64,000 bases of DNA from Polaromonas vacuolata (lineage in GTDB: Bacteria; Pseudomonadota; Gammaproteobacteria; Burkholderiales; Burkholderiaceae_C), in NCBI RefSeq assembly GCF_012584515.1, contig NZ_CP051461.1:790001-854000 (forward strand), read 5' to 3'. Shown piece after piece: positions 58,724 to 63,892 of this stretch. Each line of letters opens with the position of its first letter. Within the stretch, counting starts at the first letter, position 1. The translations under genes were made by a program, and so were the position numbers. The notes below the pieces were generated by a model. That model was not told the origin of the DNA, made no database searches, and saw only the letters and a program-made list of their open reading frames with translations.

Positions 58724-59782
58724 ATGACCCAGCATTCCCCCTTAATTATTGATATCCCCGGCCTGAGCCTGAGTAAAACCGACCGTCAACGGCTCAAGCA
58801 TCCACTGACAGGCGGCATCACCTTGTTCGCGCGTAATTGGCAGAACCGCGAGCAGCTCACCGAGCTCTGCGCGGAGATCAAAAGCTTGCGCCAAGACATA
58901 CTCATTTGCGTAGACCACGAAGGCGGTCGGGTACAGCGTTTTCGCACTGATGGCTTTACCCATTTGCCGCCCATGCATGCCCTGGGCGATCTGTGGATTA
59001 AAGACCAAATGGCGGCCACCAATGCGGCTACTGCTTGCGGCTATGTGCTGGCCAGCGAGTTGCGCGCCTGCGGTGTGGACTTGAGCTTTACGCCAGTATT
59101 AGACCTTGACTATGGCGGCAGCAGCGTCATCGGCGACCGCGCTTTAGGGCGTGACCCGCGCGTCGTCAGCATGCTCGCCAAGGGTTTGATGCACGGTCTG
59201 TTGCAGGCCGGTATGAGTAACTGCGGCAAGCATTTTCCCGGTCACGGTTTTGTTAAAGCCGATTCGCACTTCGACATGCCGATTGACAAACGCAACCTCA
59301 AAGCCATTCTTGCTGACGACGCTGCGCCTTACGAATGGCTCAACACAACGCTGACCAGCGTGATGCCGGCGCATGTTATTTATCCCAAGGTCGATGCTAG
59401 ACCGGCTGGTTTTTCCAGTCGCTGGCTGAACTTTGTGCTGCGCAGTCAGCTTGGCTTTGGTGGCGCCATCATTAGCGACGATTTGAATATGGTCGGCGCT
59501 CGAATGTTGGACGGCAAGGCAGTGACTTATACCGAGGCCGCAGTAGAGGCGCTTAACGCTGGTTGTGACATGGTGTTGCTGTGCAATCAGTCTGTCGACA
59601 AAGGCACGCCGGTGGACGAATTACTCGCTGGCATGACTCAGGCACTGGTCAAAAACCAATGGGAGGCGATGGAGTCTAGCGAGCTGCGCCGCTTGGCTCT
59701 GCTGCCGCAAATGCCGGCGCTGGACTGGGACGACTTGATGCTGCATCCGGCTTATGTGCATGCTTTAGGTCTTATTCCCTGA
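58724..59782 (+). CDS. nagZ: Beta-N-acetylhexosaminidase NagZ
   Basis: Cytoplasmic GH3 enzyme that removes GlcNAc from anhydromuropeptides in cell-wall recycling. The 352-residue protein has the KHFPGHG motif with the catalytic Asp-His loop (Asp180-Ser-His182), the nucleophile Asp252 in ISDDLNM, and VDHEGGRVQRF near residue 64. The ATG at 58724 gives the family start. It is the last gene of the co-directional cluster. Confidence 0.95.
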   Translation: MTQHSPLIIDIPGLSLSKTDRQRLKHPLTGGITLFARNWQNREQLTELCAEIKSLRQDILICVDHEGGRVQRFRTDGFTHLPPMHALGDLWIKDQMAATNAATACGYVLASELRACGVDLSFTPVLDLDYGGSSVIGDRALGRDPRVVSMLAKGLMHGLLQAGMSNCGKHFPGHGFVKADSHFDMPIDKRNLKAILADDAAPYEWLNTTLTSVMPAHVIYPKVDARPAGFSSRWLNFVLRSQLGFGGAIISDDLNMVGARMLDGKAVTYTEAAVEALNAGCDMVLLCNQSVDKGTPVDELLAGMTQALVKNQWEAMESSELRRLALLPQMPALDWDDLMLHPAYVHALGLIP

Positions 59783-59856
59783 GTCACGCCATTGGCGTGT
59801 CAGTCGTGCTACTGTGGGACTTATGTTTTTTTAAGGCCTAGCCATAGGAAATCACT

Positions 59857-61155
59857 TTGACTTCAGACGCTTCTTTGCCGATATCGGCTACCGCCGTCAC
59901 CCAGATTATTGACTCGCCTTTGATGCGCAGCGCAGGCGCCGATGTGTTGTCACTGGCTTTGATGGACGCACGCAACCACAGCCTAAACTTATTCGCTCAA
60001 TGTCAGAGCGCGCTTGAGTCAGCGCCGGGCGGTGCTCGCAGCCTGGCTAAGCCGTTGCAGCTAATAGGCCATATTGGTTGGTTTCAAGAGCGCTGGGCAG
60101 GCCGCAACGTGCAGCGTGGCTTGGGCCTACTGTGCGACCCCACACGGGTCAAGTTAGCCTCTATTGAGCCTCTCGCTGATGTTTGGTGGAGCGTCGCTGG
60201 ATCACAAGCCAGCGATGCCCCTCTACCCGATGCGGCCCATACTCGGGCCTATTTGCTTGAGACACTGGAAAGCACGCTGGAGTTACTGGAGAAAACCCGT
60301 CTCGCTGCCACTGAACCTGATCAAGCGCTGTATTTTTATCGACTCAGTTTATTCCACGAAGACATGCAGTCTGAGGCTTTGGTGTGTATGGCACAGGCTT
60401 TGGGTTTGACGCTTGAGCCGACTTGGCAGCGAGTTTTTACAGCGCCAGTCATGCAAATGCGTGAAGCGCTTTTGATTCCTGCTACGCGCTGCAACATAGG
60501 CGGCGCGCAGCTTGGTGGATTTTCTTTTGACAATGAGTTGGCCGGCTATGCACTGGATGTGCCCGAGTTTGAGATAGACGCGCAGCCGGTGAGTTGGTCT
60601 CAGTATGTAGAGTTTGTCGCCGATGGCGGCTATGACAGACCAGAACTTTGGCATAGCGCCGGTTGGGACTGGCTGCAAGGCTCGCATGCAGATCAAGATG
60701 AAGCGCTTAGCCCAGGCCGGCGCGGACCACGCTATGTCGACCAAATTAGCGCGCTCAGCGGCGCAGTGCTGCAAACCCGCTTCGGCCGTAGCGTGCGCAT
60801 GGCGGGTAATCAGCCGGCCATGCACATGACTTGGTGGGAGGCCGATGCTTGGTGTCGCTGGGCCGGTCGTCGATTGCCTTTGGAATGCGAGTGGGAATCA
60901 GCCGCGCATAGCGCATCCAGGCGTGGCTTTCGTTGGGGCGATGTGTGGGAGTGGACCGCCAGCAGTTTTCAGCCTTATCCGGGCTTTGTGGCTGGCCCAC
61001 AGGCAGACTATTCTCAGCCCTTTTTTGGCACTCACAAAGTGTTGCGTGGTGCTTCTTTTGCGACCCGTGCACGCATGAAAAGCCTGCGGTTTCGGCGTTT
61101 TGAGCTGCCTTCCAGCGACAGCTTGTTTTGCGGCTTTCGCTCTTGCGCGGTCTAA
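59857..61155 (+). CDS. EgtB/SenA-type nonheme-iron enzyme (DinB + FGE-sulfatase domains)
   Basis: Protein of 432 residues with an N-terminal DinB-like helical bundle (about 25-185) and a C-terminal formylglycine-generating-enzyme-like domain (about 205-432, with GDVWEWTASSFQPYPGF and HKVLRGASFATRARM). This architecture is that of the C-S-forming EgtB and of the selenoneine synthase SenA; the style (HIGWFQERW, LPATR, EFEIDAQPVSWSQY) recalls the SenA group of Comamonadaceae. Iron ligands should be His72 and an HxxxH pair; here the pair reads His167-Glu-Asp-Met-Gln171, so the third His is Gln. No senB, senC or egtD gene is adjacent. TTG start at 59857 with AGGA eight bases upstream. Confidence 0.72.
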   Translation: MTSDASLPISATAVTQIIDSPLMRSAGADVLSLALMDARNHSLNLFAQCQSALESAPGGARSLAKPLQLIGHIGWFQERWAGRNVQRGLGLLCDPTRVKLASIEPLADVWWSVAGSQASDAPLPDAAHTRAYLLETLESTLELLEKTRLAATEPDQALYFYRLSLFHEDMQSEALVCMAQALGLTLEPTWQRVFTAPVMQMREALLIPATRCNIGGAQLGGFSFDNELAGYALDVPEFEIDAQPVSWSQYVEFVADGGYDRPELWHSAGWDWLQGSHADQDEALSPGRRGPRYVDQISALSGAVLQTRFGRSVRMAGNQPAMHMTWWEADAWCRWAGRRLPLECEWESAAHSASRRGFRWGDVWEWTASSFQPYPGFVAGPQADYSQPFFGTHKVLRGASFATRARMKSLRFRRFELPSSDSLFCGFRSCAV

Positions 61156-62321
61156 GTTGGGTCTAAGTCTTGGGGCTGGCTTTGGCTTAGCTTGAGGTTG
61201 GTTTTCTTAACCCGATAATTCCACCACGGCAGCGTGGCCCGCAGCGACAGCACCTTGCCGCTTTGGGTGTTAATGTCCGCGTTGCTCTGCGAAGGTTTGC
61301 CGCCATAACCGGGTAGTGCTTGCAACGTGTCTTGCCAAGCCTGACTTTGCAGCTCGCTTAGCAAGGCTTGAACCGGTTTAGAGTCCAACTCGGACTTTAG
61401 ACAAACCAAGTGGTAACGCTCCTGTGTCAAGGCGATAAACCCCAGTCCTTTTTCATATGCTGCCGCTTGAATACCCAAACCGACATCGGCCGCGCCGCTG
61501 GCCACCGCTTGGGCTACTGCGCTGTGTGAAGGCTCTTGGCTGGCATAGCCGTTAATATCTTGCGCTGCAATACCGGCTTGGCGCAGCAAGTCGTCTAGCA
61601 GCACTCTGGTGCCTGTGCCCAGCGCGCGGTTGACGTAACGCAGTTGGCTAGAGGGGATATCTGCCAAGCCTGTGATGCGCAGAGGGTTGTTTTTTGCCAC
61701 TATCAAACCTTGGCTGCGCTGCGCAAAACTAATTAACTTGTGCAGACCTGGTTTGAGTAGTTTGCGGTAGGCCGCTGCTGACAGTGAATGCCGGCTTGGT
61801 AAGTCTTGGGTGTGAAAGCCCGCCATCATGCAGCGCCCGGCATTGAGCGCTGCGATAGCGTCTACGCTGCCCATAAAGCGAATGTCCAGGTGCAGGCCAT
61901 GTTGGCTGGTTTGATCGCGCAGCGCAGACAGAGCCGCATCGTGGCTGGCGAAAAGGGTTAGCACGTGGGTGTTGTCGTCAAACGCGCTGGCAAAGGCGCG
62001 CTCTATATCGCCGCGCAAGGTCTCAATCTGCGGTGCTAGTCGGGCTTGGGCTTGGCGTTCTGACCAAAGCAGTTTTTCACCAAACTCGGTCAAGCGTGCA
62101 CGCTGGCCTTTGTCCCACACGATTAAGCCGCGGCCCAGTGTTTGCTCCCATTCGCGCAGTGCGCCCCAGACATGACGGTAAGACAGCTGCATGGCAGAGG
62201 CGGCTTTTGAAATTGAGCCTTGTTCGCGCACTGCATGTAGTAAATCCATTAAGGGATTGCGGATTAGCGCGTCTTTACCGCGCTGGGCGGTAAGTAGGTA
62301 GGAGAGTTCGACTTTGTGCAT
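61152..62321 (-). CDS. ModE-type HTH regulator fused to a PBP-like domain
   Basis: Regulator of 389 residues. The N-terminal winged helix (about 18-85) has LLHAVREQGSISKAASAMQLSYRHVWGALREWEQTLGRGLIV in ModE style. The C-terminal region (about 115-350) is a periplasmic-binding-protein-like domain (PBP_like) with SQLRYVNRALGTGTRVLLDDLL, known from molybdate-linked proteins. It likely senses an oxyanion or a cofactor precursor in the cytoplasm. It is divergent from the tungstate-type ABC genes with a ModE-like palindrome between. It converges on the EgtB/SenA-like gene, overlapping its end by four bases. Confidence 0.85.
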   Translation of the reverse strand: MHKVELSYLLTAQRGKDALIRNPLMDLLHAVREQGSISKAASAMQLSYRHVWGALREWEQTLGRGLIVWDKGQRARLTEFGEKLLWSERQAQARLAPQIETLRGDIERAFASAFDDNTHVLTLFASHDAALSALRDQTSQHGLHLDIRFMGSVDAIAALNAGRCMMAGFHTQDLPSRHSLSAAAYRKLLKPGLHKLISFAQRSQGLIVAKNNPLRITGLADIPSSQLRYVNRALGTGTRVLLDDLLRQAGIAAQDINGYASQEPSHSAVAQAVASGAADVGLGIQAAAYEKGLGFIALTQERYHLVCLKSELDSKPVQALLSELQSQAWQDTLQALPGYGGKPSQSNADINTQSGKVLSLRATLPWWNYRVKKTNLKLSQSQPQDLDPT

Positions 62322-62401: not shown

Positions 62402-62462
62402 TTAGGAAACCGCAGATAGTTAAAGGCTATAGCTCTAGGCTACAGTGCATCAATTCAAATCT

Positions 62463-63206
62463 ATGAACACTTTTTATGCCAGCGTCCAGGCCGCCATTGA
62501 TCTGATATTTTCTTTTGATCCTTTGCTGGCGAGTATTGTTTTGCGCTCGCTAGCGGTCAGCGCCTGCGCTTGTTTGATCGCTTGCAGTGCGGGTCTTTTA
62601 ATCGGCGGCTGGTTGGGTGTGGCGCGCTTTCGCGGCCGCAGCTTTGTGCTGGTATTACTCAACACCGCATTAGCGCTACCTTCTGTCGTCGTAGGCTTGG
62701 TGGTTTATTTACTACTTTCTCGCAGTGGGCCATTGGGCTTTTTGGGTTGGCTGTTTTCTTTTAAGGCGATGGTGCTGGCTCAGGCCGTGTTGGTGTTGCC
62801 GGTGGTCGCGGCGCTGGTGCGGCAAAGCGTAGAAGACGCTGACAAAAGCCACGGCGGGCAGTATGCCTCTTTAGGGGCTGGCGGCTTTGTGCGCAGCTTG
62901 ATTTTGCTTTGGGATGAACGTTTTGCTTTGCTTACTGTGCTCATTACTGCTTTTGGTAGAGCTATCTCCGAAGTTGGTGCTGTGATGGTGGTGGGCGGCA
63001 ATATTGATGGCTTTACCCGTGTCATGACTACCGCTATTGCGCTGGAGACCAGCAAGGGTGACTTGCCGTTGGCGCTGGCCTTGGGCATGTTGTTGCTGGG
63101 AGTGGTGCTACTGCTCAATCTCGCCATTGCGCTGCTCAGAAGCTGGCGTGAACGCCGCGACTATCCAACAGGCAGCCCACACATCAGCTTGCGTACGGCC
63201 AGATGA
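62463..63206 (+). CDS. tupB: Tungstate/molybdate-type ABC transporter permease (TupB-like)
   Basis: Inner membrane permease of 247 residues with about five or six TM helices. The BPD_transp_1 EAA-like loop is EDADKSHGGQYASLGAGG, and LITAFGRAISEVGAVMVVGGNIDGFTRVMTTAIALETSKGD is the TupB/WtpB/ModB style signature. It is the first gene of a tupBCA operon, overlapping the ATPase gene by four bases. The ATG at 62463 is used; an in-frame GTG at 62445 is an alternative. Tungstate versus molybdate or vanadate selectivity cannot be read from the sequence. Confidence 0.87.
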   Translation: MNTFYASVQAAIDLIFSFDPLLASIVLRSLAVSACACLIACSAGLLIGGWLGVARFRGRSFVLVLLNTALALPSVVVGLVVYLLLSRSGPLGFLGWLFSFKAMVLAQAVLVLPVVAALVRQSVEDADKSHGGQYASLGAGGFVRSLILLWDERFALLTVLITAFGRAISEVGAVMVVGGNIDGFTRVMTTAIALETSKGDLPLALALGMLLLGVVLLLNLAIALLRSWRERRDYPTGSPHISLRTAR

Positions 63207-63892
63207 CAGCGCTATTTCATCTCGACAACATCAGCCTGCGCTACGGCAACGTAGCGGCACTGACGGACTGCAGCTTGCACGTTAAGGCCGGTGAAAAGCT
63301 GGCCGTGGTTGGTGCCAACGGCAGCGGTAAAAGTAGCTTGTTGAGTGTTCTACACGGTCAGCTTGTGCCGACAAAAGGCATTCGGCAGGGACCTGATCAG
63401 CTACGCCAAGCCATGCTGTTTCAACGCCCGCACATGTTGCGCGCTAGCGTGCAAAACAATGTAGCGCTTGGGCTATGGCTGCGCGGAGTGCCTTGGCGCC
63501 AGGCCCGGCGTGATGCACTCGCCGCCCTTGACTGGGTCGGGCTGGCCGATCTGGCGCAGCGCAATGCCCGTGCGCTTTCGGGCGGTCAACAGCAGCGCGC
63601 AGCACTGGCGCGCGCATGGTGTCTTAAGCCGCAGGTGATGTTGCTGGACGAGCCGACAGCCAATCTTGACCCGGGCGCTAAACGCGAGGTCGAAGCCTTG
63701 ATGGCGGACTTTTGTGCCGCCGGTACGACCTTGATATTCAGCAGTCACAACCTAGGCCAAGTCAAACGCTTGGCCAGCCGTGTGATCTACATGGAGCACG
63801 GCCGGCTGATCGCCGACTTGCCCGTGCATGAATTTTTTAACGGATCGCTGCCGGCTGCAGCGGCCAGTTTTTTAAAAGGAGAACTCGCATGA
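63203..63892 (+). CDS. tupC: Tungstate-type ABC transporter ATP-binding protein (TupC-like)
   Basis: ATPase of 229 residues: Walker A GANGSGKSSLL, signature ALSGGQQQRAALARAW, Walker B VMLLDEPTANLDP, H-loop FSSHNLGQVKRL. It lacks the C-terminal TOBE domain of ModC, as usual for TupC. It overlaps tupB and tupA by four bases each. Confidence 0.88.
   Translation: MTALFHLDNISLRYGNVAALTDCSLHVKAGEKLAVVGANGSGKSSLLSVLHGQLVPTKGIRQGPDQLRQAMLFQRPHMLRASVQNNVALGLWLRGVPWRQARRDALAALDWVGLADLAQRNARALSGGQQQRAALARAWCLKPQVMLLDEPTANLDPGAKREVEALMADFCAAGTTLIFSSHNLGQVKRLASRVIYMEHGRLIADLPVHEFFNGSLPAAAASFLKGELA

Follow-up and report, generated by a model that had tools for sequence, protein, structure and literature searches.

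Does a SenA-like protein whose third iron ligand is glutamine still join selenium or sulphur to hercynine, or has it been kept for something else? The question is raised by the gene at 59857..61155 of a 64,000-nucleotide stretch of the Polaromonas vacuolata chromosome (the window; positions 790001-854000 of a single-contig genome of 3.84 Mb). Comparing this protein with its relatives, we favour, at a probability of about 0.6, the reading that it is a pseudoenzyme derived from SenA and kept for a new role outside selenoneine synthesis, and not a working His/His/Gln selenoneine synthase. The gene and its iron-ligand positions, matched to those of Mycolicibacterium thermoresistibile EgtB, are as follows.

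59857..61155, + strand: SenA-like ligand-lost paralogue (selenoneine/sulfoxide-synthase fold), TTG start, 432 amino acids
60070..60072, + strand: His72, first iron-ligand position, kept; EgtB His51
60355..60357, + strand: His167, second iron-ligand position, kept; EgtB His134
60367..60369, + strand: Gln171 (CAG), third iron-ligand position, lost; EgtB His138

The original prediction had placed His72, His167 and Gln171 at the three ligand positions, and this was borne out by the codons, by the alignment to Variovorax paradoxus SenA (PDB 8k5i/8ryz; HEAMHAE), in which Gln171 falls on the second His of HxxxH, and by P0003 (JGI), which is 83% identical to the window protein and is His/His/Gln too. 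Because P0003 has the same Gln and the frame of 59857-61155 is open, a misread base or a frameshift at codon 171 was ruled out. The HEDMQSE motif occurs once in the window and appeared in 0 of 100 shuffles; it contains no further His, and alignment to M. thermoresistibile EgtB (4x8b) likewise found no three-His iron site in the window protein. Nor did alignment reveal another residue in the third ligand place, an outcome that had been named in advance as one that would remove the anomaly: Glu173, Glu168 and Asp169 were rejected because they are near-invariant in active and ligand-lost copies alike (scored in the non-redundant set without the window protein) and hence are no new replacements.

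The window protein scored 384.1 bits against the SenA family NF041186, under the curated cut-off of 420, and 199.7 bits against the EgtB family TIGR03440, under the cut-off of 360. The proposed DinB-FGE architecture held for FGE, the only part with a Pfam match; DinB had no Pfam score here, although PF12867 (DinB) is precomputed for many relatives and the structural model of the window protein has the full SenA/EgtB fold. A promoter scan of 59650-61300 was uninformative, giving one promoter-like site, at 61192 (0.6 expected), and none upstream of the SenA-like gene.

The loss was not confined to the iron site, as seen from the following positions, in which conservation refers to 52 canonical or senB-adjacent copies.

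60061..60063, + strand: Leu69; Glu in 52/52 copies
60193..60219, + strand: residues 113-121; loop 3 residues shorter, HxxRW absent; aligns over R87/R90 of M. thermoresistibile EgtB
61009..61011, + strand: Tyr385, kept; equivalent of Tyr377 of M. thermoresistibile EgtB
61096..61098, + strand: Arg414; Asn in 98% of copies; SenA chain position 406
61114..61122, + strand: Ser420 and Ser422; Arg and Asp in 98% of copies

The SenA structures (8k5i, 8k5j and 8ryz) have a three-His site, the hercynine Asn, the HxxRW loop and a C-terminal pocket Arg/Asp, all of which the window protein has lost, with Gln in the third ligand place and Arg414 in place of the Asn. Arg414 aligns with the OvsA position of Q430N; according to the title of entry 8ux5, OvsA M401Y/Q430N/A431F is a hercynine-binding variant, which supports the Asn406 equivalent as the likely hercynine-binding position. 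The shortened loop, for which the model has a mean confidence of just 66 over residues 111-120, leaves the protein without the positions of R87 and R90 of EgtB, which we take to be donor-binding. In all, three pocket residues besides the Asn and HxxRW have been replaced. The catalytic residues lost are thus the third iron ligand, the hercynine Asn and HxxRW, and FDNE, Trp364 and Tyr385 are retained; the role of the EgtB equivalent of Tyr385 is described in PMC10903977.

The absence of adjacent senB/senC or egtD, remarked on earlier, is true of the window locus, where the gene lies beside nagZ and a modE-like gene and not beside senB, but not of the genome. At 2343032-2344276 lies a canonical senA, whose product has the motif HEDMHCE, shares 41% identity with the window protein and scores 502.8 bits to SenA (cut-off 420). 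A divergent senB stands next to it at 2344303 (TIGR04348, 419.5 bits, cut-off 300), so the suggested search for senB elsewhere was successful. Directly after senB lies an oxidoreductase-SelD fusion (767 amino acids, TIGR03169 and TIGR00476; L115:10823-13126), and egtD is found at 1165371, apart from this cluster. The cluster rules out the window protein as the sole SenA of the genome, and because canonical senA, senB, SelD and egtD are all present, selenoneine synthesis would be provided for without the window gene. The SelD of the canonical cluster is fused behind a pyridine-nucleotide oxidoreductase domain.

To place Gln171 among its relatives, 397 genomes of the family were searched; SenA-like proteins were found in 174 (E <= 1e-40), of which 142 were sampled, and SenB in 134 of the 397. 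The 151 loci obtained (two from the genome itself) were combined with loci from a scan of named genomes to give 225 rows. Six were dropped (four shorter than 350 amino acids, the EgtB-like L264 on the minus strand, and L116, a duplicate of the window), and collapse at 97% identity left 201 rows, 31 canonical and 170 belonging to the window's clade (Comamonadaceae and relatives). All 31 canonical copies are His/His/His. The clade comprises 21 His/His/His copies beside senB, 37 His/His/His copies without adjacent senB and 112 ligand-lost copies, so that 52 of 52 canonical or senB-adjacent copies have the full triad and no ligand-lost copy lies beside senB (21/21 His/His/His).

None of the 112 ligand-lost copies has His at position 171; instead, 54 have Arg there, 17 have Gln, 16 Leu, 11 Cys, 5 Ile and 4 Val, with Trp (2), Thr (2) and Ser (1) rarer still. 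Both other histidines are kept in 72 of the 112, the window protein included, and a further ligand is lost in 40. This spread of residues speaks against the His/His/Gln facial triad, new for the family, that the original prediction had entertained, and none of the 21 senB-adjacent copies carries Gln, which answers the query about Gln in active homologues. As the main reading we rejected Gln as a selected alternative ligand, since Arg is three times commoner (54 versus 17 of 112) and pocket residues decay alongside; because position 171 is also Arg, Leu or Cys across the ligand-lost copies, Gln171 seems to be just one of the residues that a relaxed constraint has let in.

On trees built without the ligand columns, the third-ligand state needed 17 changes (201-row FastTree) and 12 (85-row IQ-TREE), 9 of the latter forced by well-supported branches. 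The senB-adjacent copies are scattered over several parts of the clade tree, which suggests that the clade goes back to an active SenA accompanied by a SenB of its own.

Pocket residues were then compared across the groups. Among 94 columns conserved to at least 96% in the 52 canonical or senB-adjacent copies, 35 fell under 85% in ligand-lost copies. For a 24-column pocket set (triad excluded, below 75% in ligand-lost copies), canonical and senB-adjacent copies both retained a median of 24 (lowest senB-adjacent copy 15, L040), against 18 for the other His/His/His copies and 9 for the ligand-lost ones, with 11 in the window protein; the columns were chosen partly by ligand-lost variation, so these group medians are partly built in. 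A less circular check was made with a local set of 149 sequences, mostly database proteins unused in column choice. There, all 101 His/His/His rows keep HxxRW and 16-17 of 17 pocket columns, and the 47 rows with a ligand lost at 167 or 171 keep 11-15 of 17, Glu69 being replaced in 40 of them; one further row, changed at position 72 only, keeps 17/17. Three His/His/His copies without adjacent senB (L235, L236 and L237) retain 2, 2 and 4 of the 24 pocket columns.

Partner genes were examined in the genomes searched for senA, senB and egtD, an intact site being defined as His/His/His with at least 22 of 24 pocket columns. All 15 intact-site copies lie in genomes that have both senB and egtD; eight of these copies are senB-adjacent and have senB by definition, and the other seven are the freer test. 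Among the remaining 117 copies (19 His/His/His with a decayed pocket and 98 ligand-lost), 72 lie in genomes without senB, 16 of them without egtD too, and therefore a decayed copy does not seem to need hercynine or selenosugar to be kept. The frequency of egtD in ligand-lost-only senB-less genomes (51/63) relative to the senB-less background (89/190) was not used, since that background takes in genomes with unfetched SenA-like matches and is uncorrected for phylogeny. The earlier alternative of lost catalysis is thus supported at the sequence level for selenoneine or sulfoxide synthesis: the ligand, the hercynine Asn and HxxRW are gone, and the intact site tracks senB and egtD.

The ligand-lost copies nevertheless show signs of retention. 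No internal stops were found among the SenA-like matches listed in the 397-genome search. Median pairwise omega (NG86) was 0.231 for 190 ligand-lost pairs (range 0.054-0.591), against 0.147 for 132 senB-adjacent and 0.275 for 17 canonical pairs, the pairs being non-independent and one locus repeated. Of the 14 closest ligand-lost pairs shown, 10 had an omega of 0.065-0.147 and four of 0.27-0.59. Moreover, the window protein conforms at every one of the 68 columns that show 97% conservation or more across the 112 ligand-lost copies, and in the set without the window protein a branch of 50 rows across several genera contains no His/His/His copy.

The surroundings of the gene are partly those of its clade, and the downstream neighbours are as follows.

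61152..62321, - strand: regulator with a helix-turn-helix (HTH) and PBP-like part (ModE-like HTH, HTH_1 and PBP_like), convergent to the SenA-like gene; frequent downstream clade neighbour
62445..63892, + strand: tupB-like permease and ABC ATPase (tupC by position), divergent from the regulator; frequent clade neighbours

A tupA-like gene follows beyond the window end. The order dctP / dctMQ - senA - modE-like - tupBCA recurs at intact and decayed loci alike. Genes of tripartite ATP-independent periplasmic (TRAP) transporters are found no more than 4 kb away in 83 of the 169 clade loci (55/111 ligand-lost, 20/37 His/His/His non-adjacent, 8/21 senB-adjacent; canonical 0/30), and modE/tup-type genes in 74 of 169 (41/111, 21/37 and 12/21, respectively; canonical 0/30). 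A TRAP transporter, with dctQ/dctM divergent and dctP beyond, is common upstream of the clade genes (for example, L160, L165, L172 and L204). The window keeps the modE-tup side and has the housekeeping gene nagZ upstream in place of TRAP genes; no second case of this nagZ-senA junction (59782-59857) was found among the loci fetched, and it seems that in this lineage a rearrangement has placed the gene beside the lepA-to-nagZ cluster. We also considered whether the gene works together with the TRAP or tungstate-type transporter but claim no such function, since intact and decayed copies share these neighbours, which looks like inherited synteny.

We propose that Comamonadaceae and relatives once had a second kind of senA, paired with a divergent senB and located at dctP/dctMQ - senA - modE-like - tupBCA, from which the window protein would descend. 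This senB would have been lost or relocated in many lineages, that of the window included, and the freed SenA would then have lost its third iron ligand together with the hercynine- and donor-binding residues but kept its fold and the conservation of a number of other residues. The window protein would no longer join selenium or sulphur to hercynine, a task presumably carried out in this genome by canonical senA/senB/selD. What we infer to have been retained is a pseudoenzyme that forms no C-Se or C-S bond; its present role is most likely non-catalytic, the protein binding a partner or a small molecule.

Several observations weigh against this proposal. Ligand state and senB adjacency gave a plain Fisher p of 9e-12, which ignores relatedness, and a tree-aware sign test with 0 contrary pairs and a median p of 0.25, which is not significant; for intact site and senB in the genome, the values were 2.5e-6 and, with 0 contrary pairs, 0.0625 (0.016-0.125). 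Besides the partly built-in pocket medians, ligand and pocket state are not strictly tied: in the local set, HxxRW survives in 25 of the 47 rows that have lost a ligand at 167 or 171, and 20 of the 37 His/His/His copies without adjacent senB have fewer than 22 of 24 pocket columns, because of which pocket decay can precede ligand loss. Purifying selection was seen in other ligand-lost members, the nearest DNA relatives of the window that were examined being about 65% identical, and the terminal branch of the window (0.62, median 0.24) also fits relaxed constraint. The analysis brought out no positive function, and the TRAP and tungstate-type transporter neighbours give no clear partner. Tyr385 and FDNE are kept in the window protein. 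Finally, 72 of the 112 ligand-lost copies keep both other histidines, which, together with the partial activity of EgtB H138 mutants, makes a two-His iron site possible.

Such a site is the basis of a rival explanation, in which His72 and His167 hold iron, Gln171 is a weak ligand or none, and the altered pocket of a re-tooled metalloenzyme works on another substrate. According to PMC13426267, the H138A, H138D and H138E mutants of the evolved EgtB_CHF1 keep partial (non-native) activity and the H51 and H134 mutants do not, H138 being the very position lost in the window protein; the kept residues, including Trp364, and the purifying selection in other ligand-lost members agree with this idea. 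However, two or more ligands are lost in 40 of 112 copies, position 171 is Arg in 54, and positions 69, 113-121, 170 and 174 vary widely without a single new set; the enzyme of that study is, moreover, an evolved one, and H138 mutants of a second evolved variant, EgtB_CHF2, are near-inactive (same source). We consider this explanation unlikely. A bolder version is somewhat more doubtful still: after loss of SenB, the SenAs of the clade may have been converted repeatedly to a two-His site (Arg, Gln, Leu or Cys at 171) and re-tooled to carry out a new chemistry, with oxygen or radicals, on a substrate other than hercynine, by analogy with the evolved EgtB, whose H138 mutants changed reaction outcomes in the laboratory (PMC13426267).

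The gene could instead be decaying, a redundant senA whose loss is under way and whose frame is open only because the decay is recent. Its redundancy with the canonical senA, its long end branch and some ligand-lost pairs at omega 0.36-0.59 would fit, and this explanation carries more weight for the window lineage than for the clade. The lack of stops among the matches listed, the 68 of 68 clade-conserved columns kept, the 50-row branch spanning several genera and the low omega of 10 of the 14 closest pairs shown argue the other way, and we regard simple decay as improbable. Least credible, to the point of being very improbable, is that the protein has remained a selenoneine or sulfoxide synthase in which Gln171 works as the third ligand. 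The predicted SenA fold, the catalytic-type Tyr and the presumed availability of hercynine (egtD in the genome) would allow it, but the hercynine Asn is Arg, the HxxRW loop is absent, there is no adjacent senB, a canonical SenA exists in the same genome and nothing ties the copies that lack an intact site to senB.

The window protein also differs from OvsA/OvoA (8u41, 8ux5 and 8khq), which by their entry titles were solved with histidine and not hercynine, bar the engineered 8ux5; OvsA keeps HxxxH. It resembles pseudoenzymes in general in its loss of catalytic residues and its retained fold, and other ligand-lost members resemble them in purifying selection too. In the full-text literature searches, as far as the retrieved texts go, no pseudoenzyme of the SenA/EgtB fold turned up, and no description of the ligand-lost clade was found in searches on SenA structure or paralogues, the EgtB active site, sen clusters and fold pseudoenzymes; the original SenA discovery and structure papers, which may mention the clade, did not surface there.

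These results go beyond the earlier note in revealing a second, canonical SenA with its partners in the genome and a loss of the ligand that is clade-wide. Ligand-lost proteins such as P0062, P0064, P0079 and P0092 are labelled 'selenoneine synthase SenA' in public records, and 102 of the 142 sampled genomes carry a ligand-lost copy, 63 of these without senB; the listing of SenA-like matches is a lower bound, and where senB accompanies a ligand-lost copy, the genome may have an unlisted canonical senA as well. Because such copies carry the SenA label, selenoneine production is probably over-predicted. Within the clade, a defined iron ligand has been lost many separate times in proteins that selection still keeps, and His/His/His sisters in the same genus allow direct comparison with the ligand-lost copies. 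This makes the clade a good system for asking what use a sulfoxide/selenoxide-synthase fold has when its metal chemistry has disappeared or changed.
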